From assembly GCF_032854445.1 (NCBI RefSeq), contig NC_088301.1:1862001-1926000 (forward strand): a stretch of DNA of 64,000 nt. The letters run 5' to 3'. The stretch is from Liolophura sinensis (Eukaryota; Mollusca; Polyplacophora; Chitonida; Chitonidae). The notes under the pieces were generated by a model. That model was not told the DNA's origin, made no database searches, and saw nothing but the letters and a program-made list of their open reading frames with translations. Shown here one piece after another: positions 167-48,493 of this stretch; positions within the stretch are counted from its first letter, which is position 1; each line of letters begins with the position of its first letter. The translations under genes were made by a program, and so were the position numbers.

Positions 167-284
167 CCATTTTCAGATATAGTTCAAATTACTGCCTTTT
201 TGTAAATATCACAACAGTACTATTTATAGTATTAAAAGAATTCTGAAAAAAGAAAAAGTTTGAAAAAGTTAAAATGCAGCCTAC

Positions 285-446
285 ATTACAAATTTTTGTA
301 ACTTCATTACCGATTTTGAACAGTAGCATGTGCAGAGACTAGGCTGGTATTTTGTGAAAGGCAATTATATTTACAATTCTGAAATAATCACAAAAATTCA
401 ACCCGGTTAGCACTGATCTAGTTATTCTGATTTCTCTGCTATAGCC
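285..446. repeat. Foldback/MITE family FB1, right half of a copy
   Basis: This stretch aligns by eye with 60490-60650, 48290-48436 and 58180-58301. Shared landmarks are ATTACCGATTTTGAA, a GACTAGGCTG block, GAAAGGCAATTAT, and AGCACTGATC close to the end CTATAGCC. I cannot place its left arm securely. The region 167-284 to its left is AT-rich and may be the decayed left arm. Confidence 0.5.
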
Positions 447-6400: not shown

Positions 6401-9400
6401 AGGTGTGCAAATCCTGGATTGAGAAGACCATATTTCTTGTTGTCTGCAGACAAGTTTGTAGTTGACACAGCAACCACAAGTGCAACATAAAATATCAGTC
6501 AGTGTAAAGCTTGCACTTTCTGTGTAGTGGAATCTGCTTGACACCAGGTCACCATCTTGTATACTAGGAACTGCTGTTGGGCATCAGTACAGTTCTAATT
6601 AACTGATGGTCCAGTTGTGGTTGATGGAAAAGAAAACAAGGAGTTCCAGCTATGCATACATGAACAATTTTTGACCATAACATATTTATAGATATATATA
6701 TGTATATACTGGTATAACACCATGCGGTTGGGCCGCACATCACTAAGTTACAGAAGAACAGCAGGCTGATGTCGAGAGAACTGAAAATTGAGTATTAAAT
6801 TTAGTTATATTGTTCTTGTACAGACACGTTGCTGTTATTCATAAACTGATTGAGGCTTTATTACTGGGTATGTGGACACCTGGCATTCATAAGCTGATTG
6901 AGGCTTTATTACTGGGTGTGTGGACACCTGGCATTCATAAGCTGATTGAGGCTTTATTACTGGGTATATGGACACCTGGCATTCATAAGCTGATTGAGGC
7001 TTTATTACTGGGTGTGTGCACCTGGCACCTGGCATTCATAAACTGATTGAGGCTTTATTACTGGGTGTGTGGACACCTGGCATTCATAAACTGATTGAGG
7101 CTTTATTACTGGGTGTGTGGACACCTGGCATTCATAAACTGATTGAGGCTTTATTACTGGGTGTGTGGACACCTGGCATTCATAAACTGATTGAGGCTTT
7201 ATTACTGGGTGTGTGGACACCTGGCATTCATAAACTGATTGAGGCTTTATTACTGGGTGTGTGGACACCTGGCATTCATAAACTGATTGAGGCTTTATTA
7301 CTGGGTGTGTGGACACCTGGCATTCATAAGCTGATTGAGGCTTTATTACTGGGTGTGTGGACACCTGGCATTCATAAGCTGATTGAGGCTTTATTACTGG
7401 GTGTGTGGACATCTGGCATTCATAAGCTGATTGAGGCTTTATTACTGGGTGTGTGGACACCTGGCATTCATAAACTGATTGAGGCTTTATTACTGGGTGT
7501 GTGGACACCTGGCATTCATAAACTGATTGAGGCTTTATTACTGGGTGTGTGGACACCTGGCATTCATAAACTGATTGAGGCTTTATTACTGGGTATGTGG
7601 ACACCTGGCATTCATAAGCTGATTGAGGCTTTATTACTGGGTATGTGGGCACCTGGCAGTCATGAGCTGATTGAGGCTTTATTACTGGGTGTGTGGACAC
7701 CTGGCATTCATAAACTAACTGAGGCTTTATTACTAGGTGTGTGGACACCCGGCAGTCCTAAGCTGATTGAGGCTTTATTACTGGGTGTGTGGACACCTGG
7801 CATTCATAAGCTGATTGAGGCTTTATTACTGGGTGTGTGGACACCTGGCAGTCCTAAGCTGATTGAGGCTTTATTACTGGGTATGTAGGCACCTGGCATT
7901 CATAAGCTGATTGAGGCTTTATTACTGTGTGTGTGTGGACGCCTGGCATCAAAAACTGATTGAGGCTTTATTACTGGGTGTGTGGACACCTGGCATTCAT
8001 AAACTGGTTGAGGCTTTATTACTGGGTATGTGGACACCTGGCATTCATAAACTGATTGAGGCTTTATTACTAGGTGTGTGGACACCTGGCAGTCCTAAGC
8101 TGATTGAGGCTTTATTACTGGGTATGTAGGCACCTGGCATTCATAAGCTGATTGAGGCTTTATTACTGGGTATGTGGACACCTGGCATTCATAAACTGAT
8201 TGAGGCTTTATTACTAGGCGTGTGGACTCCTAGCATTCATAAACTGATTGAGGTCAATTTCACGGCTTTACAAAAATCAGAACTTTATCAGTCTGCACAG
8301 AGTAATACCCTCAGAATATGCTTGAATAAACAACTTTCAAAGTTGCGAACAGTAATAGTTTGCAGTACAGTTTGCCTTTTCCTTGTCTCTTTTCTGTATT
8401 GCAAGCCCTTTACATGTATCATGATTGACAACAGAAATGAGAATACATGGTAAATATTTGTTGTGATGTATGTGTTTATTTGTTATGTAACATTTTTTTT
8501 ATATTCCAGCATGACAGGGAAGTCTGCATGAGATTGCTGTTACAAGTCAAGGGTATCATCAGTGTGACCTTTGACCTCACCAGGAAACGCTGTATCGCCC
8601 GTACTAGAGCTGACGTCAAGACAGAGGTATCAATGCTATTCTATTAGACACACTCTGCAGGCTTCTAGTTTTGGTGTATCATGTTCATTTTGTGGATGCT
8701 TTTTAAACTTATTCTTTCACACATTTTTATATGATGATATCTAAAATGTGCAACAGAACTTGTTTGTGTAAAATCTTTTTTTTTTTTTTTGGCGAAATCT
8801 GTTACAGTGTTGATTTTTTTTCTTTCGTCTGACTGTAACAGTTGTGAAATCTTCCAAACCAAAGTTGCAATTTGTTTTGTACTATTTACGTTTCTACTTG
8901 ACAGACACTTGTTCAGGCGGTAGCTCGCTCCCAGACCATGTCCGCCCAGCAAGTTATTAAGGATCAACAGGGTAAAGAGGTGGGTATCATACTTAGCTTC
9001 CTATTTATGGGGGCCTGTTCATGGGGTCTGTTCCTGTTTTTTTGTGAAATGGGGGCAATAGGCAGTTCGTAGGTCTTGGGGGTCTCTGTGGCAGAGTGGT
9101 TAGTGTGCTAGCGCAGTACATCGACATACACGTAGGAGCCTCCCTCCAACGCGGTCACTGTGAGTTCAAGTTCAGTTCACGCTGGCGTCCTCTCGGGCCC
9201 TTCATGTACATGGGAAAGTTTGCCAGCAACCTGCGAATGGTTGTTGGTTTTCTCAGGACTCGGTTTCTTCCTACTATAATGCTGTAAATACTCAAGAAAA
9301 GTGAAATATTCTTGAGTACGGCACCAGTGAAATAACTCATACCTCTAGCGTGATCATCTAGGTTGTAGTAAAACAACAACGGTGATGTAGATCACTTGGT

Positions 9401-11540: not shown

Positions 11541-13085
11541 TAACAATTGAAATATGTACAGGATTTAGGTAAGCGATCTTCATGTAACACCGCCCAAGAG
11601 AGCACCATCAACCAATTGAGTGAGTGAGTAAGTGAGTGCTTGGGGTTTAACGTCGTACTCAACAATTTTTCAGTCATATGACGACGAAGGAATCATTAGG
11701 GTGCATGTACGTGTAATGTGCCTCCTTGTTGCAGGACGGATTTCCACCGCTCTTTTATTTAGTGCTGCTTCACTGAGACGACTTACCGAAGGCAAGTAAG
11801 CTGCCCCACCCGAGCCATTATACTGATACGGGTCAACCAGTCGTTGCACTATCCCCTTCATACTGAACGCCAAGCGAGGAAGTTACAACTTCCTCTTTTA
11901 AAGTCTTAGGTGTGACTCGATCAAGGATTGATCCTGGATCTACCGGTCCCGAAGTGGACGCTCTACCAACTGTGCTATCCGGGCCGGTCTCAACCAATTG
12001 ATTGTCAACATGTGAAATAAGTACAGGATTTAGGTCAGCGATCTTCGTGTAACACCGCACAAGAGAGCACCATCAACCAAATGGCTGTCAACATGTGAAG
12101 TAAGTACAGGATTTAGGGCAGCGATCTTCGTGTAACACCACGCAAGAGAGCACCATCAACCAAACGACTGTCAACATGTGAAATAAGTACAGGATTTAGG
12201 TCAGCGATCTTCGTGTAACACTGCACAAGAGAGCACCATCAACCAAATGGTTGTCAACATGTGAAATATGTACAGGATTTAGGGCAGCGACCTTCGTGTA
12301 ACACTGCACAAGAGAGCACCATCAACCAAATGGTTGTCAACATGTGAACTATGTACAGGATTTAGGTCAGCGATCTTCGTGTAACACCGCGCAAGAGAGC
12401 ACCATCAACCAAATGGTTGTCAACATGTGAAATATGTACAAGATTTAGGGCAGCGATCTTCGTGTAACACCGCACAAGAGAGCACCATCAACCAAACGAC
12501 TGTCAACATGTGAAATAAGTACAGGATTTAGGGCAGCGATCTTCGTGTAACACCGCGCAAGAGAGCACCATCAACCAAATGGTTGTCAACAGGTGAAATA
12601 TGTACAGGATTTAGGGCAGCGATCTTCGTGTAACACCGCACAAGAGAGCACCATCAACCAAATGATTGTCAACAGGTGAATTATGTACAAGATTTAGGGC
12701 AGTGATCTTCGTGTAACACCACGCAAGACAGCACCATCAACCAAATGGTTGTCAACACGTGAACTATGTACAAGATTTAGGTCAGCGATCTTCATGTAAC
12801 ACCACACAAGAGAGCACCATCAACCAAATGGTTGTCAACATGTGAACTATGTACAGGATTTAGGGCAGCGATTTTCATGTAACACTGCACAAGAAAGCAC
12901 CATCAACCAAACGATTGTCAACATGTGAACTATGTACGGGATTTAGGGCAGCGATCTTCATGTAACACCGCACAAAAGAGCACCATCAACCAAACGACTG
13001 TCAGCATGTGAAATATGTACAGGATTTAGGGCAGCGATCTTCATGTAACACCGCACAAGAGAGCACCATCAACCAACGGTTGTCT
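11541..13085. repeat. 83-bp satellite array
   Basis: About 14 copies of an 83-bp unit with landmarks GTACAGGATTTAGGGCAGCG, TCTTCGTGTAACACCGC, AAGAGAGCACCATCAACC and TTGTCAACATGTGAAATATG. It is interrupted at 11620-11990 by a SINE2 copy. Copies differ mainly at GGGCAG/GGTCAG, CGCAC/CGCGC and the AAATGG/AAACGA positions, so no long higher-order period is obvious. Confidence 0.95.
11620..11990 (-). mobile_element. SINE2, full-length with target-site duplication
   Basis: A 371-bp element inserted in the 83-bp satellite. CAACCAATTGA stands at both 11609-11619 and 11991-12001 and extends to 12 bp if the preceding T is counted. In sense (reverse) it starts with a tRNA-like head, A-box TAGCACAGTTGG (complement of 11966-11977) and B-box GGATCAATCC (complement of 11925-11934), and ends in a (CACT)n-type tail. 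The middle holds a 68-codon open frame shared with the copy at 34641-34938. Confidence 0.92.
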
Positions 13086-13353
13086 ACATGGCCTCTATGT
13101 AATGGAAGCGGCGTTATCTTGATATTTCCTGTCTGTGGAGAACGGTTACAAACCCATGTCCCTGGTGATTATAATGACGTCTTGTCGGAAGCTCATTGTT
13201 TCACAAAAAAAATTTCCCGCTGGTTCAACTGCAGCTTTGAGTCAGAAGGTTTGCCAGGTACCTGGTGAAATGGGTCATTGCGACGCGCTGACTCCTGTGG
13301 TGGATTGCCCCGGGCTCTTGTCAGTTTTCACATCTGGTCGATATTAGTGGAAT

Positions 13354-17354: not shown

Positions 17355-17545
17355 TACTGGCAATCTGGATGTTAGTGTTCCCTATTTCAATTTTAAGGAG
17401 TAGATGGTCACATCAATTCACATATTTGGCTTGTGAAAATTTCAAATCATTTTGAGCTGTGTGGAAAAAAGATTGCCATGCAGTTTTGTTGTTGACAATC
17501 ACTGCTTTAGTTCAACACATCTGGTCTAGTTTTGGTTTCGTTTCA

Positions 17546-18833
17546 GGGGTGAGCGTTCACACTAACCGTGCCCCAGTTATGAGCTCCTCGTGCAGATGTT
17601 ATGTGCTTTCTTTCATGGCAATGACAGATCGATATTATACAAAAATATAAATATAGGCTTGGTGTATGCATGTGTAGAACCAGCTACATATACATGGAGT
17701 TGTGTTAAGAAAACACAGTATATGAGATCTAAACGCTTTCTTTTCTTTGTTTATTACTTGTTTGATATTCTCCACCGCAGTTCTGAACTTTTGCCTCATT
17801 TGAACATTAGGTTTAAAGATATGTGCAGCTAGAAGAGAACATGGGTTTTATCCTCAAGGCACATGGATTTCTGAAGGGTAACATTTTGAGGGGTAATTCG
17901 TGACAATCCAGGTGTTAGTGTTCTTTATTTCAATTTTGAAGAGAAGATGGATCCATCAATATATATGACTGCCTTGCGATGTGAAAGAAGCTGATGTTAA
18001 TCCAATGAATGTGATAGAGATATACAAACTGAATTCCTTGGCAAGGGAAATGAATGTGTAAATGATGTAGCTTTGAGAGGTTTCCCACGGGCTGTGTCCG
18101 GTTGCCTCTCACCATAATGCTCGCCGCCGTCGTTTAAGTGAAATATTCCTAAGTCCGGCGTAAAACACCAATCAAATAGATAATTAAACAAACTGGATTC
18201 CTTGACGAGGGAAATGAATGTGTAAATGATCTAGCTATATGGACTCGCGTGTATCAGCTTAGACGTTTTAGCCCTTGGTACATTATCTGTAATACGTTTT
18301 TGGATGTATGAGTAAAAGTGGTGAATGGATGGGAAACCCGTTTCACATTTGGCCGATTTACGTGTGAGTGGCGCAACGGGCAAGTAACTAATATTTATTT
18401 TACCTTTGAGAGGTTTCCCACGGGCTGTGTCCGGTTGCCTCTCACCATATTGCTCGTCGCCGTCGTATAAAAGAAATATTTCTGAGTACGGCGTAAAACA
18501 ACAATAAAATAAATAATTAAACAAACTGGATTCCTTGACGAGGGAAATGAATGTATAAATGATCTAGCTATGTGTGTATCGCGTGTATCAGCTTTGACGT
18601 TTGAGCCCTGGGCATATTATCTGTAATACGTCTTTGGATGTATAAAGAAAGAGGTGAATGGATGGGTAACCCGTTTCACCTTTGCCAGTGAGTACCTAAT
18701 CTTTATTTTAACTTAGAGAGGAAATACGCAGGCTTAAATTTACAGGTTTGGCTTGTGAAAAATCCACCGATTTCTAACTGTGTCACATAATGTCTGTTGG
18801 GCCTCGTCATTTCTTTCTTTATATTTGTTTTCA
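17546..18833. repeat. Array unit 0 (type B, deleted module A)
   Basis: Module A is reduced to its palindrome and its last part (GCCCCAGTTATGAGC...). Module B follows, with two SINE1 core/tail pieces at about 18075-18185 and 18410-18520. Being at the edge, it is more diverged than inner units. Confidence 0.85.
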
Positions 18834-20170
18834 GGGGTGAGCGTTCACGCTAACCCCCAGAGTAAAAATTCTCCACCCGATCACCCCAGGTTACCCCCGG
18901 CTAGATTACCATCCGCAGGTTTTTTTTTTTTAGGTGATCGCAGATCTCAAGCCTACCGATTTCTCGGCAAACCCTCGACCTGTGGGCTCCCGCCTTGCTG
19001 ATCACGGATACCCCGGTGACAATTAACTCCGATCCGTTGGTAGTGTACACCTATTACTCTTTTTCCCGTGCCCCAGGTGTGGGCCCCATGTGCAGATGTT
19101 CCGTGTTTTTGTTCAAGGCAATGACAGATCTATATTATAGAAGACATAAGTAAATGCTTGATGTATGCATGTGTAGAACCAGCCACATATATATGGAGTT
19201 GTGTGAAGAAAACACAGTATATGAAATCTAAACGCTTTCTTTTCTTTGTTTATTACTTGTTTGATATTCTCCACCGCAGTTCTGAACTTTTGCCTCATTT
19301 GAACATTAGGTCTATATAACTGTGTGTAGCTCGAAGAGAACAACGCTTTTTTTCCTCAAGGCACATGGATTTCTGAAGGGTAACATTTTGAGGGGTAATT
19401 CGTGACAATCCAGGTGTTAATGTTCTTTATTTCAATTTTGAAGAGAAGATGGATCCGTCAATATACACAATTGCCTTGCGCTGTGAAAGAAAGTGATGTT
19501 AATCCAATGAATGTGAAAGAGACACACAAACTGGATTCCTTGACAAGGGAAATGAATGTGTAAATGATCTAGCTATATGGACTCGCGTGTATCAGCTTAG
19601 ACGTTTTAGCCCTCGGTACATTATCTGTAATGCGTTTTTGGATGTATGAATAAAAGTGGTGAATTGATGGGAAACCCGTTTTACATTTGGCCGATTTACG
19701 TGTGAGTGGCGCAACGTGCAAGTAACTAATATTTATTTTACCTTTGAGAGGTTTCCCACGGGCTGTGTCCGGTTGCCTCTCACCATAATGCTCGTCGCCG
19801 TCGTATAAGTGAAATATTCCTGAGTACAGCGTAAAACAACAATAAAATAAATAATTAAACAAACTGGATTCTTTGACGAGGGAAATGAATGTATAAATGA
19901 TCTAGCTATATGGACTCGCGTGTATCAGCTTAGACGTTTGAGCCCTGGGCATATTATCTGCAATACGTCTTTGGATGTATAAAGAAAGAGGTGAATGGAT
20001 GGGAAACCCGTTTCACCTTTGCCAGTGAGTACCTAATCTTTATTTTAACTTAGAGAGGGAATACGCAGGCTTAAATTTACATGTTTGGCTTGTGAAAAAT
20101 CCACCGATTTCTAACTGTGTCACACAATGTCTGTTGAGCCTCGTCATTTCTTTCTTTATACTTGTTTTCA
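18834..20170. repeat. Array unit 1 (type B)
   Basis: Full module A with a 12-T run, module B, one SINE1 piece (about 19743-19858), then the closing segment ending in a pyrimidine-rich TTCTTTATACTTGTTTTCAG just before the next module A. The part from about 19575 on is nearly identical to 23307-23900. Confidence 0.9.
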
Positions 20171-21061
20171 GGGGTGAGCGTTCACGCTAACCCCCAGAGT
20201 AAAAATTCTCCACCCGATCACCCCAGGTTACCCCCGGCTAGATTACCATCCGCAGGTTTTTTTTTTAGGTGGTCGCTGATCTCAAGCCTACCGATTTCTC
20301 GGCAAACCCTCGACCTGTGGGCTCCCGCCTTGCTGATCACGGGTACCCCGGTGGAAATTAACTCTGATCAGTTGGTAGTGTACATCTATTACTCTTTTTC
20401 CCGTGTCCCAGGTGTGGGCTCAAAGGTCAGATGTTAACTTTTTTTAAGGTCGATCATGAAAACCCTTTCGCCTGAAATGTGAATCTAATAATATTGGCGG
20501 AAGATAATGCCAAAGTTTGTTCGCACATAACACACAGTACAAGATTCACTTACAAAAGATACAAGTCAATGAACCGCCAATGAGTGTAGCGAGGGATCTT
20601 TTATCCAGCAGTTCAAAGAGTTTGAGATAAACACTGAGCACTACGTTATATCTACAGTATTAACATTTATCAGATTGTGAATGGGAATTTAAGTATGCCT
20701 TGCGCTGTGAAAGAAAGTGATGTTAAACCAATGAATGTGAAAGAGACATACAAATTGGATTCTTTGACAAGGGAAAGGAATGTATAAATGATGTAGCTAT
20801 ATGGACTTGAGTGTATCAGCTTAGACGTTTGAGTCCTGGGCATATTATCTGCAATACACATTTGGATGTATAAAGAAAGAGGTGAATGGATGGGAAACCC
20901 GTTTCACATTTGCCAGTGAATAACTAATCTTTATTTTAACTAAGAGAGGAAATACGCAGGCTTAAATTTACATGTTTGGCTTGTGAAAAATCCACCGATT
21001 TCTAACTGTGTCACACAATGTCTGTTGAGCCTCGTCATTTCCTTCTTTATATTTGTTTTCA
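20171..21061. repeat. Array unit 2 (type C, 891 bp)
   Basis: Module A, then module C (about 20436-20690), then the closing segment. The reverse-strand frame of module C that is open in the three other copies is broken here by a TGG to TGA change. Confidence 0.88.
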
Positions 21062-22393
21062 GGGGTGAGCGTTCACGCTAACCCCCAGAGTAAAAATTCT
21101 CCACCCGATCACCCCAGGTTACCCCCGGCTAGATTACCATCCGCAGGATTTTTTTTTAGGTGATCGCAGATCTCAAGCCTACCGATTTCTCGGCAAACCC
21201 TCGACCTGTGGGCTCCCGCCTTGTTGATCACGGGTACCCCGGTGACAATTGACTCCGATCCGTTGGTAGTTTACACCTATTACTCTTTCTCCCGTGTCCC
21301 AGGTGTGGGCTCCATGTGCAGATGTTCCGTGTTTTTGTTCAAGGCAACGACAGATCTATATTATAGAAGACATAAGTAAAGGCTTGGTGTATGCATGTGT
21401 AGAACCAGCTACATATACATAGAGTTGTGTGAAGAAAAGACAGTATATGAAATCTAAACGCTTTCTTTTCTTTGTTTATTACTTGTTTGATATTCTCCAC
21501 CGCAGTTCTGAACTTTTGCCTCATTTGAACATTAGGTTTAAAGATATGTGCAGCTCGAAGAGAACATGGGTTTTATCCTCAAGGCACATGGATTTCTGAA
21601 GGGTAACATTTTGAGGGGTAATTCGTGACAATCCAGGTGTTAATGTTCTTTATTTCAATTTTGAAGAGAAGATGGATCCATCAATATATATGACTGCCTT
21701 GCGATGTGAAAGAAGCTGATGTTAATCCAATGAATGTGATAGAGATATACAAACTGAATTCCTTGGCAAGGGAAATAAATGTATAAATGATGTATCTATA
21801 TGCTCTGACGTGAATCAGGTTAGACGTTTTAGCCCTCGCTACATTATCTGTAATGCGTTTTTGGATGTATTAATAAAAGTAGCGAATGGATGGGAAACCC
21901 GTTTCACATTTGGCCGATTTACGTGTGAGTGGCGCAACGGGCAAGTAACTAATCTTTTTTCTAGCTTTGAGAGGTTTCCCACGGGCTGTGTCCGGTTGCC
22001 TCTCACCATAATGCTCGTCGCCGTCGTATAAGTAAAATATTCCTGAGTACGGCGTAAAACACCAGTCAGATAGATCATTAAACAAACTAGATTCCTTGAC
22101 AAGGGAAATGAATGTATAAATGATGTAGCTATATGGACTCGCGTGTATCAGCTTAGACGTTTAAACCCTCGGTACATTATCTGTAACGCTTTTTGGATGC
22201 ATGAATAAAAGAGGTGAATGGATGGGAAACCCGTTTCACCTTTGCCAGTGAATAACTAATCTTTATTTTAACTTAGAGAGGGAAAACGCAGGTTTAAATT
22301 TGAATGTTTGGCTTGTGAAAAATCCACCTATTTCTAACTGTGTCACATAATGTCTGTTGGGCCTCGTCATTTCCTTCTTTATATTTGTTTTCA
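21062..22393. repeat. Array unit 3 (type B)
   Basis: Module A, module B, one SINE1 core/tail piece (about 21965-22075) and the closing segment. Order as in unit 1. Confidence 0.9.
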
Positions 22394-23900
22394 GGGGTGA
22401 GCGCTCACGCTAACCCCCAGAGTAAAAATTCTCCACCCGATCACCCCAGGTTACCCCCGGCTAGATTACCATCCGCAGGTTTTTTTTTAGGTGATCGCAG
22501 ATCTCAAGCCTACCGATTTCTCGGCAAACCCTCGACCTGTGGGCCCCCGCCTTGCTGATCACGGGTACCCCGGTGACAATTAACTCCGATCCGTTGGTAG
22601 TGTACACCTATTACTCTTTTTCCCGTGCCCCAGGTGTGGGCCCCATGTGCAGATGTTCTGTGTTTTTGTTCAAGGCAACGACAGATCTATATTATAGAAG
22701 ACATAAGTAAAGGCTTGATGTATGCATGTGTAGAACCAACCACATATATATGGAGTTGTGTGAAGAAAAGACAGTATATAAAATCTAAACGCTTTCTTTT
22801 CTTTGTTTATTACTTGTTTGATATTCTCCACCGCAGTTCTGAACTTTTGCCTCATTTGAACATTAGGTTTAAAGCTGTGTGTAGCTCGAAGAGAACATGG
22901 GTTTTATCCTCAAGGCACATGGATTTCTGAAGGGTAACATTTTGAGGGGTAATTCGTGACAATCCAGGTGTTAGTGTTCTTTATTTCAGTTTTGAAGAGA
23001 AGATGGATCCATAAATATACACAACTGCCTTGCGCTGTGAAAGAAAGTGATGTTAATCCAATGAATGTGAAAGAGACACACAAACTGGATTCCTTGACAA
23101 GGGAAATGAATGTGTAAATGATGAAGCTATATGGACAATCCAGGTGTTAGTGTTCTTTATTTCAGTTTTGAAGAGAAGATGGATCCATAAATATACACAA
23201 CTGCCTTGCGCTGTGAAAGAAAGTGATGTTAATCCAATGAATGTGAAAGAGACACACAAACTGGATTCCTTGACAAGGGAAATGAATGTGTAAATGATGA
23301 AGCTATATGGACTCGCGTGTATCAGCTTAGACGTTTTAGCCCTCGGTACATTATCTGTAATGCGTTTTTGGATGTATGAATAAAAGTGGTGAATTGATGG
23401 GAAACCCGTTTTACATTTGGCCGATTTACGTGTGAGTGGCGCAACGTGCAAGTAACTAATATTTATTTTACCTTTGAGAGGTTTCCCACGGGCTGTGTCC
23501 GGTTGCCTCTCACCATAATGCTCGTCGCCGTCGTATAAGTGAAATATTCCTGAGTACAGCGTAAAACAACAATAAAATAAATAATTAAACAAACTGGATT
23601 CTTTGACGAGGGAAATGAATGTATAAATGATCTAGCTATATGGACTCGCGTGTATCAGCTTAGACGTTTGAGCCCTGGGCATATTATCTGCAATACGTCT
23701 TTGGATGTATAAAGAAAGAGGTGAATGGATGGGAAACCCGTTTCACCTTTGCCAGTGAGTACCTAATCTTTATTTTAACTTAGAGAGGGAATACGCAGGC
23801 TTAAATTTACATGTTTGGCTTGTGAAAAATCCACCGATTTCTAACTGTGTCACACAATGTCTGTTGGGCCTCGTCATTTCTTTCTTTATACTTGTTTTCA
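22394..23900. repeat. Array unit 4 (type B, with 176-bp duplication)
   Basis: Longer than its neighbours (1507 bp) because 22961-23136 is repeated immediately as 23137-23312, with no difference that I could see. It has one SINE1 piece at about 23473-23588. Confidence 0.92.
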
Positions 23901-25592
23901 GGGGTGAGCGTTCACGCTAACCCCCAGAGTAAAAATTCTCCACCCGATCACCCCAGGTTACCCCCGGCTAGATTACCATCCGCAGGTTTTTTTTTTTTAG
24001 GTGATCGCAGATCTCAAGCCTACCGATTTCTCGGCAAACCCTCGACCTGTGGGCCCCCCCCGCCTTGCTGATCACGGGTACCCCGGTGACAATTAACTCC
24101 GATCCGTTGGTAGTGTACACCTATTACTCTTTTTCCAGTGTCCCAGGTGTGGGCTCCATGTGCAGATGTTCCGTGTTTTTGTTCAAGGCAACGACAGATC
24201 TATATTATAGAAGACATAAGTAAATGCTTGATGTATGCATGTGTAGAACCAACCACATATATATGGAGTTGTGTGAAGAAAATACAATATATAATATCTA
24301 AACGCTTTCTTTTCTTTGTTTATTACTTGTTTGATATTCTCCACCGCAGTTCTGAACTTTTGCCTAATTTGAACATTAGGTTTAAAGCTGTGTGTAGCTC
24401 GAAGAGAAGATGGGTTTTCCACAAGGCACATGGATTTCTGAAGGGTAACATTTTGAGGGGTAATTCGTGACAATCCAGGTGTTAGTGTTCTTTATTTCAA
24501 TTTTGAAGAGAAGATGGATCCATCAATATATATAACTGTCTTGGGCTGTGAAAGAAGCCGGTGTTAATCCAATGAATGTGAAAGAGATATACAAACTGAA
24601 TTCCTTGACAAGGGAAATGAATGTGTAAATGATGAAGCTATATGGACTCGCGTGTATCAGCTTAGACGTTTTAGCCCTCGGTACATTATCTGTAATGCGT
24701 TTTTGGATGTATGAATGGAAGTGGTAAATTCATGGGAAACCCGTTTCACATTTAGCTGATTTACGTGTGAGTGGCGCAAAGGGCAAGTAACTAATCTTTA
24801 TTTTAGCTTTGAGAGGTTTCCCACGGGCTGTGTCCGGTTGCCTCTTACCATAATGCTCGCCGCAGTCGTATAAGTGAAATATTCCTGAGTACAGCGTAAA
24901 ACACCAATCATGTAGATAATTAAACAAACTGGATTCCTTGACGAGGTAAATGAATATATAAATGATGTAGCTATATGCCACTGACGTGTATCAGCTTAGA
25001 CGTTTTAGCCCTTGGTACATTATCTGTAATACGTTTTTGGATGTATGAGTAAAAGTGGTGAATGGATGGAAAACCCGTTTTCCATTTGGCCGATTTACGT
25101 GTGAGTGGCACAACGGGCAAGTAACTAATCTTTATTTTAGCTTTGAGAGGTTTCCCACGGGCTGTGTCCGGTTGCCTCTTACCATAATGCTCGCCGCAGT
25201 CGTATAAGTCAAATATTCCTGAGTACGGCGTAAAACACCAATCAAATAGATAATTAAACAAACTGGATTCTTTGACAAGGGAAATGAATGTATAAATGAT
25301 GTAGCTATATGGACTCGCGTGTATCAGCTTAGACGTTTTAGCCCTTGGTATATTATCTGTAATACCTTTTTGGATGTATGAGTAAAAGTGGTGAATGGAT
25401 GGGAAACCCGTTTCACATTTGGCCGATTTAACTGTGGGGCGCAACGGGCAAGTAACTAATCTTTATTTTTGTCTTGAGAGGGAATACGCAGGCTTAAATT
25501 TGTATGTTTGGCTTGTGAAAATCCACCTATTTCTGACTGTGTCACACAATGTCTGTTGAGTCTCGTCATTTCCTTCTTTATATTTGTTTTCA
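23901..25592. repeat. Array unit 5 (type B, two SINE1 pieces)
   Basis: 1692 bp. The SINE1-containing segment of module B is present twice in tandem (SINE1 pieces at about 24812-24925 and 25140-25258), which explains the extra length. Confidence 0.88.
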
Positions 25593-26280
25593 GGGGTGAG
25601 TGTTCACACTAACCCCCAGTGTAAAAATTCTCCACCCGATCACCCCAGGTTACCCCCCGGCTAGATTACCATCCGCAGGGTTTTTTTTCAGGTGATGTAA
25701 CCATTAATAATATTGGCGGAAGATAATGCCAAAGTTTGTTCGCACATAACACACTATACAAGATCCACTTACAAAAGATACAAGCCAATGAACCATCAGT
25801 GAGTGTAGCGAGAGCTCTTTTATCCAGCAGTTCAAAGAGTTTGAGATAAACACTGAGCACTACGTTATATCTACAGTATTAACATTTATCAGATTGTGAA
25901 TGGGAATTTAAGTATGCCTTGCGCTGTGAAAGAAAGTGATGTTAAACCAATGAATGTGAAAGAGATATACAAATTGGATTCCTTGACAAGGGAAAGGAAT
26001 GTATAAATGATGTAGCTATATGGACTTGAGTGTATCAGCTTAGACGTTTGAGTCCTGGGCATATTATCTGCAATACGCCTTTGGATGTATAAAGAAAGAG
26101 GTGAATGGATGGGAAACCCGTTTCACATTTGCCAGTGAATAACTAATCTTTATTTTAACTAAGAGAGGAAATACGCAGGCTTAAATTTGAATGTTTGGCT
26201 TGTGAAAAATCCACCTATTTCTAACTGTGTCACATAATGTCTGTTGGGCCTCGTCATTTCCTTCTTTATATTTGTTTTCA
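25593..26280. repeat. Array unit 6 (type C, short)
   Basis: Only 688 bp. Module A is cut after its T-run (about 25697) and joined to module C (about 25698-25918), then the closing segment. Module C carries the open reverse frame 25666-25860. Confidence 0.88.
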
Positions 26281-27637
26281 GGGGTGAGCGCTCACGCTAA
26301 CCCCCAGAGTAAAAATTCTCCACCCGATCACCCCAGGTTACCCCCGGCTAGATTACCATCCGCAGGTTTTTTTTTTAGGTGATCGCAGATCTCAAGCCTA
26401 CCGATTTCTCGGCAAACCCTCGACCTGTGGGCTCCCGCCTTGCTGATCACGGGTACCCCGGTGACAATTGACTCCGATACGTTGGTAGTGTACACCTATT
26501 ACTCTTTTTCCCGTGCCCCAGGTGTGGGCTCCATGTGCAGATGTTCCGTGTTTTTGTTTAAGGCAACGACAGATCTATATTATAGAAGACATAAGTAAAT
26601 GCTTGATGTATGCATGTGTAGAACCAGCCACATATATATGGAGTTGTGTGAAGAAAAATACAATATATAATATCTAAACGCTTTCTTTTCTTTGTTTATT
26701 ACTTGTTTGATATTCTCCACCGCAGTTCTGAACTTTTGCCTCATTTGAACATTAGGTTTAAAGATGTGTGCAGCTCGAAGAGAACATGGGTTTTATCCTC
26801 AAGGCACATGGATTTCTGAAGGGTAACATTTTGAGGGGTAATTCGTGACAATCCAGGTGTTAGTGTTCTTTATTAAAATTTTGAAGAGAAGATGGATCCA
26901 TCAATATACATAACTGCCTTGCGATGTGAAAGAAGCTGATGTTAATCCAATGAATGTGAAAGAGACACACAAACTGAATTCCTTGACAAGGGAAATGAAT
27001 GTGTAAATGATGTAGTTATATGGACTCGCGTGAATCAGGTTAGACGTTTTAGCCCTCGGTACATTATCTGTAATGCGTTTTTGGATGTATGAATAAAATT
27101 GGTGATTTGATGGGAAACCCGTTTCACATTTAGCTGATTTACGTGTGAGTGGCGCAACGGGCAAGTAACTAATCTTTATTTTAGCTTTGAGAGGTTTCCC
27201 ACGGGCTGTGTCCGGTTGCCTCTTACCATAATGCTCGCCGCCGTAGTATAAGTGAAATATTCCTGAGTACGGCGTAAAACACCAATCAAATAGATAATTA
27301 AACAAACTAGATTCCTTGACAAGGGAAATGAATGTGTAAATGATGTAGCTATATGGACTCGCGTGTATCAGCTTAGACGTTTGAGCCCTGGGCATATTAT
27401 CTGTAATACATCTTTGGATGTATAAAGATAGAGGTGAATGGATGGGAAACCCGTTTCACATTTGGCCCATTTACATGTGAGTGGCGCAACGGACAAGTAA
27501 CTAATCTTTATTTCAACTTTGAGAGGGAATACGCAGGCTTAAATTTGTATGTTTGGCTTGTGCAAATTCACCTATTTCTAACTGTGTCACACAATGTCTG
27601 TTGAGTTTCGTCATTTCTTTCTTTACACTTGTTTTCA
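26281..27637. repeat. Array unit 7 (type B)
   Basis: Standard order, with a SINE1 piece at about 27190-27305. Its frame 26901-27395 is residue-for-residue the same as 29612-30106 in unit 9, a sign of recent duplication. Confidence 0.9.
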
Positions 27638-28995
27638 GGGGTTAGCGTTCACGCTACCCCCCAGAGTAAAAATTCTCCACCCGATCACCCCAGGTTACCC
27701 CCGGCTAGATCACCATCCGCAGGTTTTCTTTCAGGTGATGTAGCCATTTCTGGGCAAACCCTCGAGCTCTGGGCCCCTGCCTTGCTGCTCACGGGTACCC
27801 CCGGTGACAATCAACGCCTACTATTACTACTATTACTAGTAATAGAAAATATTGGCATATTCAGGTGCCATATAGCCCTATTCATGCCAGAGCAACCAAA
27901 TATTTTCTGTTCTTGTCATCCTGAAAAGTAATTAGTAGTTATCAAATTTAGAGACCAGTTAAATAATAACGATGATAACAGAATCTGTTTATTTTGGTGA
28001 CGCCCTAAAGGTGGCTAATATTTTAGCTAACAGAATCGCTTACTTCTTGTGACAAAAAATACTACCATATTAAATATTTGAGCTTTGTTGGTTTTTGGCT
28101 TGAAAGATTCGCCACTGATGGTTGTTGCACACCTAAAATCGAAAGCCGTCTTAATATGTCATTACGAATCTGTCCATAATATAGACACCGAAGTAAAAAA
28201 TGATCGATAGTTTCTGAAACACTGCAGTGGTTACAAAAACCAGAGGGATGCTTTCCAATTCTATGAAGATAAAAATTCAAAGGAACGTGACCCAATCAAC
28301 GCCTTTGTTTGGCAGTGCAGACGTATAGGTCCTTTACCCTTGTCCCAGGCGTGGGCTCAAATGTCAGATGTTAACTTTTTTTAAGGTCGATCATGAAAAA
28401 ACTTTCGCCTGAAATGTGAATCTAATAATATTGGCGGAAGATAATGCCAAAGTTTGTTCGCACATAACACACTATACAAGATCCACTTACAAAAGACACA
28501 AGCCAATGAACCATCAGTGAGTGTAGCGAGAGCTCTTTTATCCAGCAGTTCAAAGAGTTTGAGATAAACACTGAGCACTACGTTATATCTACAGTATTAA
28601 CATTTATCGGATTGTGAATGGCAATTTTAAGTATGCCTTGCGCTGTGAAAGAAAGTGATGTTAATCCAATGAATGTGAAAGAGATATATAAACTGGATTC
28701 CTTGACACGGGAAATGAATGTATAAATGATGTAGCTATATGGACTTGGGTGTATCAGCTTAGACGTTTATTAGAGTATAGTATCTGTTATCCGGTCTTTG
28801 TATAAAGAAAGAGGTGAATGGATGGGAAACCCATTTCACCTTTGCCAGTGAATAACTAATCTTTATGTTAACTTTAAGAGGGATTACGCAGGCTTAAATT
28901 TGAATGTTTGGCTTGAGAAAAAAATCCACTTAGTTGTAACTGTGTCACATAACGCCTCTTGACCCCTCATCATTTCGTTTTTTGCATTTTTTTCA
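27638..28995. repeat. Array unit 8 (type C with LINE tail)
   Basis: Module A is shortened and its end is split by the LINE fragment 27820-28292. Module C (about 28382-28632) and the closing segment follow. The palindrome at its start is altered to GGGGTTAGCGT on the left arm. Confidence 0.9.
27820..28292 (-). mobile_element. 5'-truncated LINE (non-LTR retrotransposon) 3' end
   Basis: A 473-bp insertion flanked by the 12-bp duplication CAATCAACGCCT (27808-27819 and 28293-28304). On the minus strand 28062-28295 reads GHVPLNFYLHRIG, PSGFCNHCSVSETIDHFLLRC, i.e. a C-x2-C ... H-x4-C knuckle as found at the C-terminus of non-LTR retrotransposon reverse transcriptase polyproteins. Its 3' end is a TAG/TAA-type short repeat instead of poly(A). 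Only the last about 75 codons remain, so it is dead. The clade cannot be set from this much. Confidence 0.85.
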
Positions 28996-30349
28996 GGGGT
29001 GAGCGTTCACGCTAACCCCCAGAGTAAAAATTCTCCACCCGATCACCCCAGGTTACCCCCGGCTAGATTACCATCCGCAGGTTTTTTTTTAGGTGATCGC
29101 AGATCTCAAGCCTACCGATTTCTCGGCAAACCCTCGACCTGTGGGCTCCCGCCTTGCTGATCACGGGTACCCCGGTGACAATTAACTCCGATCCGTTGGT
29201 AGTTTACACCTATTACTCTTTCTCCCGTGTCCCAGGTGTGGGCCCCATGTGCAGATGTTCCGTGTTTTTGTTCAAGGCAACGACAGATCTATATTATAGA
29301 AGACATAAGTAAAGGCTTGATGTATGCATGTGTAGAACCAGCCACATATATATGGAGTTGTGTGAAGAAAAGACAGTATATGAGATCTAAACGCTTTCTT
29401 TTCTTTGTTTATTACTTGTTTGATATTCCCCACCGCAGTTCTGAACTTTTGCCTCATTTGAACATTAGGTTTAAAGATGTGTGCAGCTAGAAGAGAACAT
29501 GGGTTATCCTCAAGGCACATGGATTTCTGAAGGGTAACATTTTGAGGGGTAATTCGTGACAATCCAGGTGTTAGTGTTCTTTATTAAAATTTTGAAGAGA
29601 AGATGGATCCATCAATATACATAACTGCCTTGCGATGTGAAAGAAGCTGATGTTAATCCAATGAATGTGAAAGAGACACACAAACTGAATTCCTTGACAA
29701 GGGAAATGAATGTGTAAATGATGTAGTTATATGGACTCGCGTGAATCAGGTTAGACGTTTTAGCCCTCGGTACATTATCTGTAATGCGTTTTTGGATGTA
29801 TGAATAAAATTGGTGATTTGATGGGAAACCCGTTTCACATTTAGCTGATTTACGTGTGAGTGGCGCAACGGGCAAGTAACTAATCTTTATTTTAGCTTTG
29901 AGAGGTTTCCCACGGGCTGTGTCCGGTTGCCTCTTACCATAATGCTCGCCGCCGTAGTATAAGTGAAATATTCCTGAGTACGGCGTAAAACACCAATCAA
30001 ATAGATAATTAAACAAACTAGATTCCTTGACAAGGGAAATGAATGTGTAAATGATGTAGCTATATGGACTCGCGTGTATCAGCTTAGACGTTTGAGCCCT
30101 GGGCATATTATCTGTAATACATCTTTGGATGTATAAAGATAGAGGTGAATGGATGGGAAACCCGTTTCACATTTGGCCCATTTACATGTGAGTGGCGCAA
30201 CGGACAAGTAACTAATCTTTATTTCAACTTTGAGAGGGAATACGCAGGCTTAAATTTACATGTTTGGCTTGTGAGAAATCCACCGATTTCTAACTGTGTC
30301 ACACAATGTCTGTTGAGCCTCGTCATTTCTTTCTTTATACTTGTTTTCA
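28996..30349. repeat. Array unit 9 (type B)
   Basis: Full module A, module B and a SINE1 piece (about 29900-30015). Nearly identical to unit 7 from about 29530 to 30240, then switching to a different variant near 30250. Confidence 0.9.
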
Positions 30350-31690
30350 GGGGTGAGCGTTCACGCTACCCCCCAGAGTAAAAATTCTCAACCCGATCAC
30401 CCCAGGTTACCCCCGGCTAGATCACCATCCGCAGGTTTTCTTTCAGATGATGCAACCATTTCTGGGCAAACCCTCGAGCTCTGGGCCCCTGCCTTGCTGC
30501 TCACGGGTACCCCGGTGACAATCAACGCCTACTATTACTACTATTACTAGTAATAGAAAATATTGGCATATTCAGGTGCCATATAGCCCTATTCATGCCA
30601 GAGCAACCAAATATTTTCTGTTCTTGTCATCCTGAAAAGTAATTAGTAGTTATCAAATTTAGAGACCAGTTAAATAATAACGATGATAACAGAATCTGTT
30701 CATTTTGGTGACGCCCTAAAGGTGGCTAATATTTTAGCTAACAGAATCGCTTACTTCTTGTGACAAAAAATACTACCATATTAAATATTTGAGCTTTGTT
30801 GGTTTTTGGCTTGAAAGATTCGCCACTGATGGTTGTTGCACACTTAAAATCGAAAGCCGTCTGAATATGTCATTACGAATCTGTCCATAATATGGACACC
30901 AAAGTAAAAATGATCGATAGTTTCTAAAACACTGCAGTGGTTACAAAAACCAGAGGGATGCTTTCCAATTCTATGGAGACAAAAATTCAAAGGAACGTGA
31001 CCCAATCAACGCCTTTGTTTGGCAGTGCGGACGTATAGGTCCTTTAGCCTTGTCCCAGGCGTGGGATCAAAGGTCAGATGTTAACTTTTTTTAAGGTCGA
31101 TCATGAAAACCCTTTGGCCTGAAATGTGAATCTAATAATACTGGCGGAAGATAATGCCAAAGTTTGTTCACACATAACACACTATACAAGATCCACTTAC
31201 AAAAGATACAAGCCAATGAACCATCAGTGAGTGTAGCGAGAGCTCTTTTATCCAGCAGTTCAAAGAGTTTGAGATAAACACTGAGCACTACGTTATATCT
31301 ACAGTATTAACATTTATCAGACTGTGAATTGGAATGTAAGTATGCCTTGCGCTGTGAAAGAAAGTGATGCTAAACGAATGAATGTGAAAGAGATATACAA
31401 ACTGGATTCCTTGACAAGGGAAAGGAATGTATAAATGATGTAGCTATATGGACTTGGGTGTATCAGCTTAGACGTTTATTATCTGTAATCCGGTCTTACT
31501 ATACAGAAAGAGGTGAATTGATGGGTAAGCCGTTTCACCTTTGCCAGTGAATAAATAATCTTTATTTCAACTTACAGATGGATTACGCAGGCTTAAATTT
31601 ACATGTTTCGCTTGTGAAAAATAACCAGCTATTTGTAACACATAACGTCTGCTGTGCCACATTATTTCGTATTTAGCATTCATTTTTTCA
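30350..31690. repeat. Array unit 10 (type C with LINE tail)
   Basis: Duplicate of unit 8: shortened module A, LINE fragment, module C (about 31092-31340) and a more diverged closing segment. Confidence 0.9.
30531..31002 (-). pseudogene. Second copy of the LINE tail (by duplication)
   Basis: Same fragment as 27820-28292 with the same flanking 12-mers (30519-30530 and 31003-31014), so it was copied with its host unit and did not insert independently. I count about 9 differences over 472 bp. One is a lost A in the run near 30908, which breaks the reverse-transcriptase C-terminal frame still open in the other copy. Confidence 0.88.
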
Positions 31691-31960
31691 GGGGTGAGCG
31701 TTCACGCTAACCCCCAGAGTAAAAATTCTCCACCCGATCACCCCAGGTTACCCCCGGCTAGATTACCATCCGCAGGTTTTTTTTTTTTAGGTGATCGCAG
31801 ATCTCAAGCCTACCGATTTCTCGGCAAACCCTCGACCTGTGGGCCCCCGCCTTGCTGATCACGGGTACCCCGGTGACAATTAACCCTGGCTATGTTGGTG
31901 ATACAAATGTATAGGCTTTACCCGTGTCCCACATGTGGGCTCCATGCGTGTAGATGTACG
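31691..31960. repeat. Array unit 11 (module A only)
   Basis: A well-preserved module A with a 12-T run, diverging after TGACAATTAACCC and ending near GTGGGCTCCATGCG. This is the right edge of the array. Confidence 0.88.
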
Positions 31961-32364
31961 GTGGAACGTGAATACTAGCCATGGTGTATAAGAATAATAT
32001 TTTAAAAACTACAATAAAATCGTCGTAAATAAAAAAATTAAATAAAACATAGAACTGTGCGAACCAAAATCAAAAACAGTACGAAAACCAGTGAAAATTG
32101 AAATACATGTACAAACTTCCTGTAATAACAAATTGGAATGTAAATTAACAACAACCTCAAACACGAAACAAAAACAAATTTAAGCAAAAATTCAAATGAG
32201 GCGACAAATTTAAAACCCGAATAAAAACCGCAACAAGACTAAAATATTTTAAAATGCAAATCAAAACTCTCCAGGCCATAAGCCCTGCTACAACCTTCTT
32301 CGTAATAAATTCGAGGAGTTACCTCCCCTGGACATTTTCGGTTTGGGTGTGTCAGTTTGCAGTG
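31961..32364. other. A-rich stretch, no gene
   Basis: Strongly A-rich low-complexity sequence (AAATAAAAAAATTAAATAAA and similar) next to the array edge. Nothing else recognised. Confidence 0.6.
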
Positions 32365-33072: not shown

Positions 33073-33595
33073 ATGAGGATACTTTTTCTTGCCAGCAAAC
33101 AATGCAATGATGTCAATATTTTTAAAAATGCACATCTGTGCTCCGTAAAAAGATGCTACCTGCTTGTTGTTATTATTTATTTGTTTAATAGTGTTGTTTT
33201 TTTTGTTTGTTTGTTTTTTTTTTTTTTTTGCTTTTTTTTTTTTTGATTTTTGTTTTTTTGTTTTTGATTTTTTTTATAGTGTAAAATTTAGACTACTATT
33301 ATTTATTATAAAGGTTGTTACAGCTTTATGGATGTTTGGAATCGGGACAGAGCATGAAGAAACCAGCGTTCGTTTCATTAGTCAGATATTTCGAGTTGCT
33401 CATATGAATGTTGTCACTCATGCTGCATAGCGGCCGCGCCTCTTTGTCGAAAAATCCACATACGCAGGCTACCGGCATAGTGTGCAGAAATGCTATAGCA
33501 GAGGAATCGGTAAAAAGCAGATTGTAAGGCCACCAGTGAGCGCCAAATCTTCTCTTCCCTCACGCTGCTAGTTCACTGGTTTTCCTTGGATTCGA
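33073..33595. other. T-rich region, no gene
   Basis: Contains a long imperfect poly(T) tract (about 33195-33280). The 88-codon Phe-rich frame across it is a product of the T runs. Confidence 0.6.
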
Positions 33596-33596
33596 T

Positions 33597-33700
33597 GGTG
33601 AGCGTTTACGCTGATGCCCTGAATAAACATTCTGCCCCCGATCATCCCAGCCTACTTCCTGAAACATTGACACCTCGCCAGATCTTCGCTTTGTATAATC
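33597..33700. repeat. Decayed module A outside the array
   Basis: TGGTGAGCGTTTACGCTGATGCCC, AAACATTCTGCCCCCGATCA and CCCAGCCTAC match the first 100 bp of module A at reduced identity. It lies about 1.6 kb beyond the array edge. Confidence 0.6.
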
Positions 33701-34080
33701 GCAAATAAGAAGCCTTGTAATAACTCATCAAGGTGCTCGCCCGTGGGATTTATGTTGAAGATTACAACTGCCCCTGTAACGATTGGCTTGTGTTCGGACG
33801 GTATAATAATGTGTATACCCGAATACGACTTGTGGGTCTCGGCATGTTTGGTACTGAATAATAGCCATTTTTGCGCTTGTTATGAAACCTGCCACTATTT
33901 TTCCGTGATATTAAAAGTATTTCTGTAAACTAAGCAGTTATATACACTTAAACAAAATTTGTCTGCTTTTTCTTTTAGCTTGTATAATTTTTGTTTAACT
34001 GGATAGGTTTCCACTCAGCGTACACAACAATTCGGTTGAAGGTCACCTTCTAGAATTCCCCTACGTTTTGATTCATGACA

Positions 34081-34270
34081 GGGGTGAGCGTTCACGCTAA
34101 CCCCCAGAGTAAAAATTCTCCACTCGATCACCCCAGGCTGGATATAACCTTTGGCAAGTTTTGTCATTAAGGTGATCGCAGATCTCTAGCCTAGCGGTTG
34201 CTCGACAAAACCCTTGACCTGAGGGCCCCGTCTTGATGATCATGGGTACCCCTGTGTTATTACATGTACG
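34081..34270. repeat. Diverged module A outside the array
   Basis: The first 60 bp match array module A almost exactly, including the palindrome. Then a different 30-bp piece replaces the CCCCCGGCTAGATTACCATC part, and the match resumes at GGTGATCGCAGATCTC and runs to GATCATGGGTACCCC. It shows module A existing apart from modules B and C. Confidence 0.85.
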
Positions 34271-34384
34271 CGCTTTACGTAGAGGGCATTTATGGACTAT
34301 GCATGCGTAGCCCAATTGTGGGCCCTAAGCCTTGAATATTTTAATAGCGGCCTTTGCTCTACACAGTGATCGCCATGTAAACTA

Positions 34385-48436: not shown

Positions 48437-48493
48437 CCTTAATCAAGAAAAAGACCTGGCGGAAAATCGGCCACAGAGACAAGCAGCAAGGAA

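Follow-up and report, generated by a model that had tools for sequence, protein, structure and literature searches.

A tandem cluster of putative genes for a divergent U1-like RNA in the chiton Liolophura sinensis

Is a long tandem array that lacks a protein frame a satellite, a mobile element, or a set of genes? This question is raised by a 64,000-nucleotide stretch of the Liolophura sinensis genome (contig NC_088301.1, positions 1,862,001 to 1,926,000), hereafter the window, in whose coordinates all positions are given. Self-BLAST of the window recovered a direct-repeat array at 17,355-31,963, confirming the twelve-head direct array reported in a preliminary description of this DNA. The heads, copies of a shared module A, lie at 17545, 18832, 20169, 21060, 22392, 23899, 25591, 26279, 27636, 28994, 30348, and 31689. 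They are 688-1,692 bp apart, and 6 of the 11 spacings measure 1,330-1,360 bp, which agrees with the usual 1.33-1.36 kb noted earlier. The upstream spacers are of alternative types, namely, module B, with seven long copies (e.g., 19078-19470), and module C, with four copies in the array (e.g., 20420-20695). Inside the array, 53 self-matches of at least 500 bp have identities of 75.7-97.5%, well above chance. Module A had also been described outside the array, and we found such copies at 34079-34267 and 33593-33659.

No protein frame had been recognized, and this holds: when Pfam was run on five open frames, none of the four in the array gave a match above the cut-off (three gave nothing at E 0.1, and one gave two matches far under the cut-off). 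The only frame with a Pfam match above the cut-off, at 41237-42694 (Core-2/I-branching), is outside the array. We rejected module A as a plus-strand exon, since the array and the copy at 33593 do not, as judged by eye, differ preferentially at third codon positions. A tRNA search of the window with bacterial settings returned none, and microRNA and snoRNA matches in Rfam were discarded because all were below the cut-offs, several of them in simple or tandem repeats. Read on the minus strand, module A is a U1 snRNA-like gene. This is the functional direction of the array, a correction to the preliminary description, and a protein frame is absent because the product would be RNA.

The Rfam U1 model (RF00003) finds eight complete copies in the array and one outside it, all on the minus strand, with E values from 1e-10 to 7e-8. 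Module A had been said to belong to no known family; it matches U1, albeit below the gathering score. No copy in the window reaches that score (69.5 bits): the best attains 52.2 bits, the nine matches fall 17-27 bits short, and no Rfam family is listed at its gathering threshold in the window. The complete copies are located at 18832-19030 (48.4 bits, E 1.2e-9), 20169-20365 (48.4 bits; a 5' arm variant), 21060-21256 (48.1 bits), 22392-22587 (52.2 bits, E 1e-10; used for the pair counts below), 23899-24100 (42.4 bits), 26279-26475 (49.8 bits), 28994-29189 (50.4 bits), and 31689-31887 (48.6 bits), the last at the array edge, with a conserved RNA and diverged near flanks. The other four heads, also on the minus strand, are incomplete. 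Two are broken by a stem-loop II deletion and a LINE-like fragment in the 5' end: 27636-27811 (21 bits, E 0.1) and its higher-order-repeat twin, 30348-30522 (19 bits, E 0.4). One is 5' truncated and aligns only from the stem-loop III loop to the 3' end (25591-25690), and one, at the leading edge, is a stem-loop IV remnant joined straight to the promoter side (17545-17569; 17.8 bits, E 0.0066 with our model R1). Broken or truncated heads therefore number 3 of 12, besides the remnant, and the two broken ones were amplified together. Both copies just outside the array are on the minus strand as well: a diverged one at 34079-34267 (43.1 bits) and a decayed, aligned Sm/stem-loop IV copy at 33593-33659, which scores 62.7 bits with R1 and is itself among the eight rows from which R1 was built.

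Canonical U1 genes are present in the genome as well: at least 40 exceed the cut-off, most of them in one separate tandem array (C10); hence, the module A genes are divergent paralogues. blastn from seven canonical loci strikes the Sm/stem-loop IV region of the window copies (best E 1.6e-8, from locus C6), and identity to the canonical U1 at locus C7 is 99 of 162 aligned sites (~61%). The array RNA almost certainly derives from U1. As to descent from a single canonical isotype, copy 22392 matches one isotype at 2 and the other at 3 of the 11 sites that separate the two, which favors neither.

The predicted array RNA is about 196-202 nt long and retains the four-way junction, Sm site, and stem-loop IV of U1, together with a conserved promoter-like block near -55. 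The junction, with stem-loops I-III and helix H, can be followed in copy 22392, where 39 of 41 standard pairs of the canonical U1 at C7 are kept, 6 of them via changes on both sides; the outside copy at 34079 keeps 37 of 42, both counts resting on alignments fitted to the U1 model. Under simulated decay, 29.7 ± 2.0 pairs of copy 22392 were kept and 0 of 20,000 runs did as well, and the count for the outside copy was equaled by 1 run in 20,000. In a sequence-only alignment, copy 22392 keeps 36 of 42 pairs, 7 of which changed on both sides. These U1 hairpins appear in the free folds of all five array copies (of the eight complete ones) that were folded. For copy 18832, the fold z score is -5.8 on the minus strand versus -1.2 on the plus strand, and other shuffles gave -7.2 for this copy and -5.5 for copy 31689, both on the minus strand. 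The outside copy folds poorly alone (z = -1.85). Within the 12-copy alignment, only two pairs changed on both sides, and one of these (in 25591) could be two CpG decays. Stem-loop IV is paired in 98.3% of cells of the copy alignment, and stem-loop III is longer than in canonical U1.

In none of the eight complete copies is the 5' arm ACUUACCUG, the complement of 5' splice sites, preserved; the array arm is GGAGUUAAUUG where canonical U1 has AUACUUACCUG. Neither ATACTTACCTG nor ACTTACCTGG matches the window on either strand with up to one mismatch. The array arm varies at nt 4-11 in three of the eight complete copies and is different again in the outside copy, and its complement contains no GU. 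Free folds of five array copies have the arm folded back on the Sm site; we do not claim this pairing, as 194 of 2,000 shuffled arms pair equally well and there is no covariation. The U1-70K-binding loop of stem-loop I is GAUCANGAAG in U1; it reads GAUCAGCAAG in the array and GAUCAAUCAG (main array) or GAUCACGAAG (C6 and C7) in the genome's own U1. The U1A-binding motif in the stem-loop II loop, AUUGCAC, is present in the canonical copies, and the array copies carry a 4-nt GAAA loop instead. The Sm stretch AATTTTTACTC / AAUUUUUACUC, followed by stem-loop IV, is the same in the array copies and the canonical U1 of this genome.

Four lineages have in common a conserved upstream block at -53 to -56. 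On the minus strand, it aligns at 19060-19084 in the first complete copy (starting at -54), at 31916-31940 in the edge copy (-53), at 28332-28356 in a broken copy, beyond the LINE-like fragment, and at 34299-34323 in the outside copy (-56). The block agrees with the promoter word of the C7b U1 gene at 16-17 of 25 positions, equaled by 6-11 of 3,000 random windows; the words were chosen by eye after the alignment had been viewed. In other U1 flanks, the C7b word reaches 13/25 at C10 (a score that 524 of 3,000 random windows also attain), 12 at C7a (1,312), and 9 at C6 (2,997), and the edge-copy block reaches 14/25 at C10 (107 of 3,000) and 12 at both C6 and C7a (1,061 of 3,000). The block is therefore regarded as no more than a candidate for the PSE that snRNA genes of the Pol II type have near -55: it finds no match in the C6 and C7a promoters, and C10 is weaker than C7b. 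Downstream of the array copies, where such genes have a 3' box, inspection by eye revealed no counterpart of the canonical C10 3' flank (GTGAAAAACAGA-like).

Among the seven core copies, diversity is 0.019 in the RNA versus 0.05-0.19 in the flanking bins, making the RNA body the lowest bin. Over the RNA, the edge copy is identical to the seven-core consensus at 194 of 201 sites. Agreement drops to 22 of 42 at -40 to 0 and 40 of 61 at 200 to 260, and it rises locally to 18 of 22 at -60 to -41. Further into the 3' flank of this copy, at 261-350, 81 of 92 sites are again identical; thus, the uniformity of the RNA may partly reflect patchy gene conversion rather than selection.

Beyond a SINE, further dispersed repeats, and simple sequence, the spacers share no homology with the seven canonical loci. 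Fragments of this genome-wide SINE lie inside the units (nine in the array; e.g., a 3' fragment at 18071-18180, plus strand), as do doubled 164-bp blocks (e.g., 18188-18351). Two units carry a minus-strand LINE-like 3' fragment with a 12-bp duplication on either side (CAATCAACGCCT, flanking the first copy); the copies, at 27818-28300 and 30529-31010, are 98.1% identical. The SINE and LINE-like fragments bear out the earlier view that the array is built of pieces with separate histories. A 2.7-kb higher-order repeat (26511-29186 versus 29225-31884) is 95.7% identical. Amplification by unequal exchange, one of two explanations offered in the preliminary description, is upheld by the direct order, the sub-arrays, the higher-order repeat, and the divergent edge copies; unequal exchange with conversion, the spacers being passengers, fits the layout, and one LINE-broken U1-like copy was amplified in the process. 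The head-to-tail homogenized repeats are a satellite-type arrangement, a term that describes layout and says nothing on function.

We favor, with a probability of about 0.63, the reading that the array is a minus-strand tandem cluster of transcribed Sm-class snRNA genes encoding a divergent U1 paralogue. Its basis is in the sequence, namely, the U1 homology, the kept fold, the shared Sm stretch, the -55 block, and the lack, in a genome search, of any match to the RNA outside the window. The array RNA is probably functional now or was so recently. The main rival, which we consider unlikely, is a pseudogene satellite, in which a dead U1 duplicate became part of a tandem repeat, whose copies resemble each other only through homogenizing exchange and conversion. 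Such an origin would suit the loss of the 5' arm and the U1A loop, the amplification of broken copies in the higher-order repeat, scores that are all below gathering, spacers built of repeats and SINE pieces, and a promoter block not common to the C6 and C7a U1 genes; moreover, the patchy downstream identity suggests conversion. Against it stand the stems compensated relative to canonical U1 (39/41 where the null gives about 30, and 36/42 by sequence only), an RNA body that is the least diverse bin and whose limits in the edge copy fall at the RNA ends, the retention of the -55 block in four lineages, and the 37 of 42 pairs kept outside the array.

Two further readings are less probable still. 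A working U1 isoform could recognize unusual, CAAUUAACU-like 5' splice sites by pairing through the changed arm; the array RNA retains stem-loop I and helix H, and human variant U1 RNAs with donor-site and protein-binding changes act in mRNA processing, according to PMC5159530. Yet an arm that varies among complete copies and whose complement lacks GU, along with the missing U1A loop, makes this isoform improbable. The least credible reading, to which we assign hardly any weight, is a U1-headed SINE or other non-autonomous element inserted repeatedly in tandem. U1- and U2-headed SINEs exist, none of which was shown in our literature search, and copies do occur outside the array. Nevertheless, a genome search with the module A RNA gave 12 matches, of which 11 fall in the array and the other is the copy at 34079; none lies beyond the window, although relatives of greater divergence would escape such a search, and this result counts against the spreading element proposed in the preliminary description. 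Likewise, an upstream block common to several lineages would be lacking in retrocopies. With a combined 1,346-base query, the 39 scored of 5,189 candidates comprised only this locus and SINE copies. A 22-mer of the RNA had no match in viral contigs or in the genome contigs collection, as expected for a eukaryotic locus.

If the array is indeed a cluster of transcribed snRNA genes, each gene would be transcribed by RNA polymerase II via the snRNA promoter complex, and its product would bind the Sm ring and form an snRNP. The changed arm would presumably have lost the ability to select GU-type 5' splice sites, and stem-loop II the ability to bind U1A, which would leave other targets, competition for U1 proteins, or an arm-independent step as candidate roles. 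We tentatively propose, as a possibility short of an even chance, a new Sm-type snRNA class that arose from U1, keeping the scaffold, dropping 5' splice-site recognition and U1A binding, gaining a long stem-loop III loop (perhaps SINE derived), and occupying its own array beside the canonical one with a job other than 5' splice-site choice.

Compared with canonical U1 (RF00003; C10 array), the array RNA shares the four-way junction, helix H, stem-loops I-IV, the Sm stretch AAUUUUUACUC, and tandem order, and it differs in the 5' arm, the U1A loop, and the length of stem-loop III; the units are about 1.34 kb long versus about 1.97 kb in C10. Human variant U1 snRNAs are much closer to U1. Like the Liolophura copies, they are U1 paralogues changed in the donor-site and protein-binding regions, as described in PMC5159530. 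The Liolophura copies differ from them in forming a homogenized tandem array, in their far larger divergence, and in a reshaped stem-loop III. Developmentally switched U1 isoforms, as in Xenopus, sea urchin, and mouse, are not known to have lost the 5' splice-site arm, which is missing from 8 of 8 complete array copies. The presence of more than one U1 isoform per genome, described in PMC4291461, is a shared feature. Mollusc satellite arrays derived from transposable elements have tandem units with SINE-related pieces, as here, and a SINE origin was proposed for a limpet satellite (PMC11121367). In the Liolophura array, in contrast, it is a U1-like RNA gene that forms the conserved core, rather than part of a transposon.

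Few eukaryotic RNAs are as constrained as U1. If our proposal is true, the U1 scaffold would be separable in nature from 5' splice-site recognition, with its fold kept by compensatory change, and the locus would allow the role of the remaining parts of the U1 particle to be tested directly. What looks like a macro-satellite devoid of protein frames can prove to be a cluster of RNA genes concealed on the opposite strand and scoring under database cut-offs. Liolophura may thus carry a U1-like RNA that has kept its shape and lost its intron-finding sequence, and that may now either serve a new function or be a relic in decay.

Our self-comparison of the window, which lies on contig C7 of the 609-Mb genome, recovers the twelve-unit array that the preliminary description had proposed, with 12 heads at 17,355-31,963. 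The spacing of 1.33-1.36 kb claimed as usual holds for 6 of the 11 head-to-head intervals (1,330-1,360 bp), within a total spread of 688-1,692 bp, and the claim that either module B or module C follows module A, the head, stands with seven long copies of B and four of C. Units comprise 164-bp blocks, frequently as doublets, a SINE fragment, module A, and then B or C. The same SINE occurs on many contigs of the genome, and its copies in the window are of a kind known from molluscs. The 64-kb window also holds six further minisatellites, 88-97% matched (5084-5636, 55-bp unit; 6837-8253, 48 bp; 11990-13090, 83 bp; 43032-43979, 26 bp; 48493-49600, 45 bp; 51761-52254, 29 bp), and an open frame of 486 codons at 41237-42694 with a Core-2/I-branching enzyme domain (E 5e-35).

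At gathering thresholds, Rfam yields no match anywhere in the window. Below them, the U1 model (RF00003) matches along its whole length on the minus strand in nine copies, eight within the array and one outside it at 34079 (42.4-52.2 bits, E 1e-10 to 7e-8), and two more copies, 27636 and 30348, score 19-21 bits (E 0.1-0.4). The earlier view that module A belongs to no known family therefore no longer holds, and the 12 heads resolve into eight complete copies, two broken (27636 and 30348), one truncated (25591) and one remnant (17545), the last four likewise on the minus strand. In the truncated copy (25591-25657), a C-G pair of stem-loop IV has become U-A through changes on both sides, both of which CpG decay could explain. 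Copy 33593 is picked up in addition by a 3'-domain model, which was built from eight rows that included this copy.

Canonical U1 genes are present elsewhere in the genome. Our RF00003 search scored 42 of 8,309 candidates, the window copies not among them, so that its counts are lower bounds: 40 of the 42 matches exceed the cut-off, at 135-148 bits. At least 33 lie on contig C10, with 32 over the cut-off in the main cluster (C10:30033968-30099180, or 30.034-30.099 Mb), mostly ~1.97 kb apart; at least four lie on C627, a small contig of 8,571 bases, at least one on C6, and at least two on C7 at 20.66 Mb. Given these separate genes, the window array constitutes a second, divergent U1-type family. 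Loop I of the tandem canonical isotype is GAUCAAUCAG, which is unusual as a U1-70K loop; a second canonical isotype, with loop I GAUCACGAAG, is dispersed (C6 and C7 at 20.66 Mb), and the upstream flanks of its genes have little in common. U1 and 5S genes are linked in razor shells.

Canonical U1 here starts with AUACUUACCUGG and contains AUUGCAC in loop II. The array RNA has GGAGUUAAUUG at its 5' end, with variants at nucleotides 4-11 in three of the eight complete copies, a 4-nt GAAA as loop II, and a loop III ~35 nt longer than that of canonical U1; the Sm stretch, AAUUUUUACUC, is identical in both. Copy 22392 agrees with the canonical U1 at C7 at 99 of 162 aligned sites. Independently, blastn from seven fetched canonical loci reaches the Sm/stem-loop IV region of the U1-like copies, the C6 and C7 loci matching array copies (best E 1.6e-8) and the C10 loci matching the outside copy alone (E 3e-4). 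The same searches revealed no spacer homology between the array and the seven loci except SINE, other dispersed repeats and simple sequence. At the level of sequence, we conclude that the predicted RNA of module A descends from U1 and has lost both the splice-site arm and the U1A loop.

The main alternative is that the array is a satellite of pseudogenes. Compensated stems and a conservation bounded by the RNA both make it less probable. In alignments fitted to the U1 model, copy 22392 keeps 39 of the 41 pairs that are standard at canonical C7 U1, with six altered on both sides; the corresponding figures are 39 of 41 for the edge copy 31689 and 37 of 42 for the outside copy 34079. Random substitution at the same number of paired sites retains 29.7 +/- 2.0 pairs for 22392 and reaches 39 in none of 20,000 runs; the values of the edge and outside copies were each equalled in 1 of 20,000. 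A sequence-only alignment retains 36 of 42 pairs, seven altered on both sides (35 of 42 for the outside copy), and against the Rfam consensus 42 of 46 are standard, 15 altered on both sides. Folding is strand-specific in copy 18832 (z of -5.8 on the minus strand and -1.2 on the plus strand), and among 200-nt windows along one unit the strongest z (-5.6, minus strand) lies over the RNA. For the outside copy the fold is weak (z -1.85), and the free fold resembles U1 in stem-loop IV alone. Within the family, 95.7% of cells are paired versus 31-58% with partners slid, in a test that takes its structure from one copy and has low variation, with both-side changes in two pairs only. Overall, the predicted array RNA has retained the U1 fold.

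As for the bounds of conservation, seven core copies have a diversity of 0.019 within the RNA versus 0.05-0.19 in flanking bins. The edge copy shares 194 of 201 RNA sites with the core consensus, compared with 22/42 at -40..0, 40/61 at 200..260 and 18/22 in the -60..-41 bin. Its identity rises again to 81/92 at 261..350, and copy 28994 has a similar downstream dip, which together suggest that patchy conversion contributes. The outside copy is identical at 48 of the final 49 nt, which make up Sm and stem-loop IV, and at 50-78% in the remaining RNA bins.

The -60..-41 bin contains the block GCCCACNNNTGGG, usually with a CACGGG-like stretch after it, which is common to the core, edge, LINE-broken and outside lineages (30348 is off by one base); a conserved upstream block thus accompanies the predicted RNA genes. 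We compared it with promoter words of canonical genes, beginning at -57 (C10) and -59 (C7b, a C7 gene); these were picked by eye with the alignment already in view, so the following odds are optimistic: the C7b word matches at 16-17 of 25 positions in 7/7 flanks (random windows as good, 6-11/3,000), the C10 word at 11-13 of 18 in six array flanks (2-64/3,000) and at 9 of 18 in the outside copy (1,135/3,000), and the edge-copy block matches C7b at 17/25 (0/3,000), C10 weakly at 14/25 (107/3,000), and the C6 and C7a flanks at chance level. The C7b-like block begins at -53 to -56, counted from base 28300 in the LINE-broken copy. As a control, the C7b word has no good match in the C10, C7a or C6 flanks, which partly counts against a general PSE. 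No 3' box of the C10-gene type was recognised at array copies. A five-T run inside the Sm site, together with the lack of a T-run past the 3' end, would favour Pol II over Pol III.

A 0.48-kb fragment with the 12-bp repeat CAATCAACGCCT on either side is present in two units. Its minus-strand frame weakly resembles zf-RVT (E 0.0076; 17.3 bits, cut-off 27.5), the zinc-binding end of reverse transcriptases, and the fragment is probably a LINE 3' end. Both fragments lie within a 2.7-kb higher-order repeat (26511-29186 versus 29225-31884, 95.7% identical), so a single insertion was probably duplicated along with its unit.

A non-autonomous element spreading in tandem had been offered as one possible explanation of the array. 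A whole-genome DNA search with the RNA of 18832 returned 12 matches (12/12 candidates scored), all inside the window: 11 in the array and 34079. Within the reach of this search, the family is local, making a mobile element unlikely; the search missed the diverged 33593 and the remnant 17545, so distant relatives elsewhere could escape too. The other proposal, amplification by unequal exchange, fares better, since with conversion it explains the direct order, the divergent edges and the higher-order repeat. The outside copy may preserve an intermediate stage, as its 3' flank (34072-34117) starts TCATGAA, like that of canonical C10 U1. Part of loop III may be SINE-derived: its insert (18908-18921, reverse strand, and the equivalent site in other copies) shares the 14-mer AACCTGCGGATGGT exactly with SINE copies at 132 and 39674, a possible case of SINE capture within an snRNA.

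Among the matches listed in open-licence PubMed Central, titles and abstract openings mention no U1-like array without the splice-site arm. A tunicate whose introns are mostly non-canonical has retained identical U1 5' ends in both of its U1 versions (PMC13326754). In humans, variants of U1 can be unstable and subject to clearance by the exosome (PMC7328512), so that the presence of a gene is no proof of a stable product. If expressed, the array genes would be transcribed by Pol II, and their RNA would assemble with Sm proteins and serve a purpose that does not involve choosing 5' splice sites. It might compete for U1-70K or Sm proteins, or base-pair with other targets; the arm differs among copies, which favours competition over target pairing.
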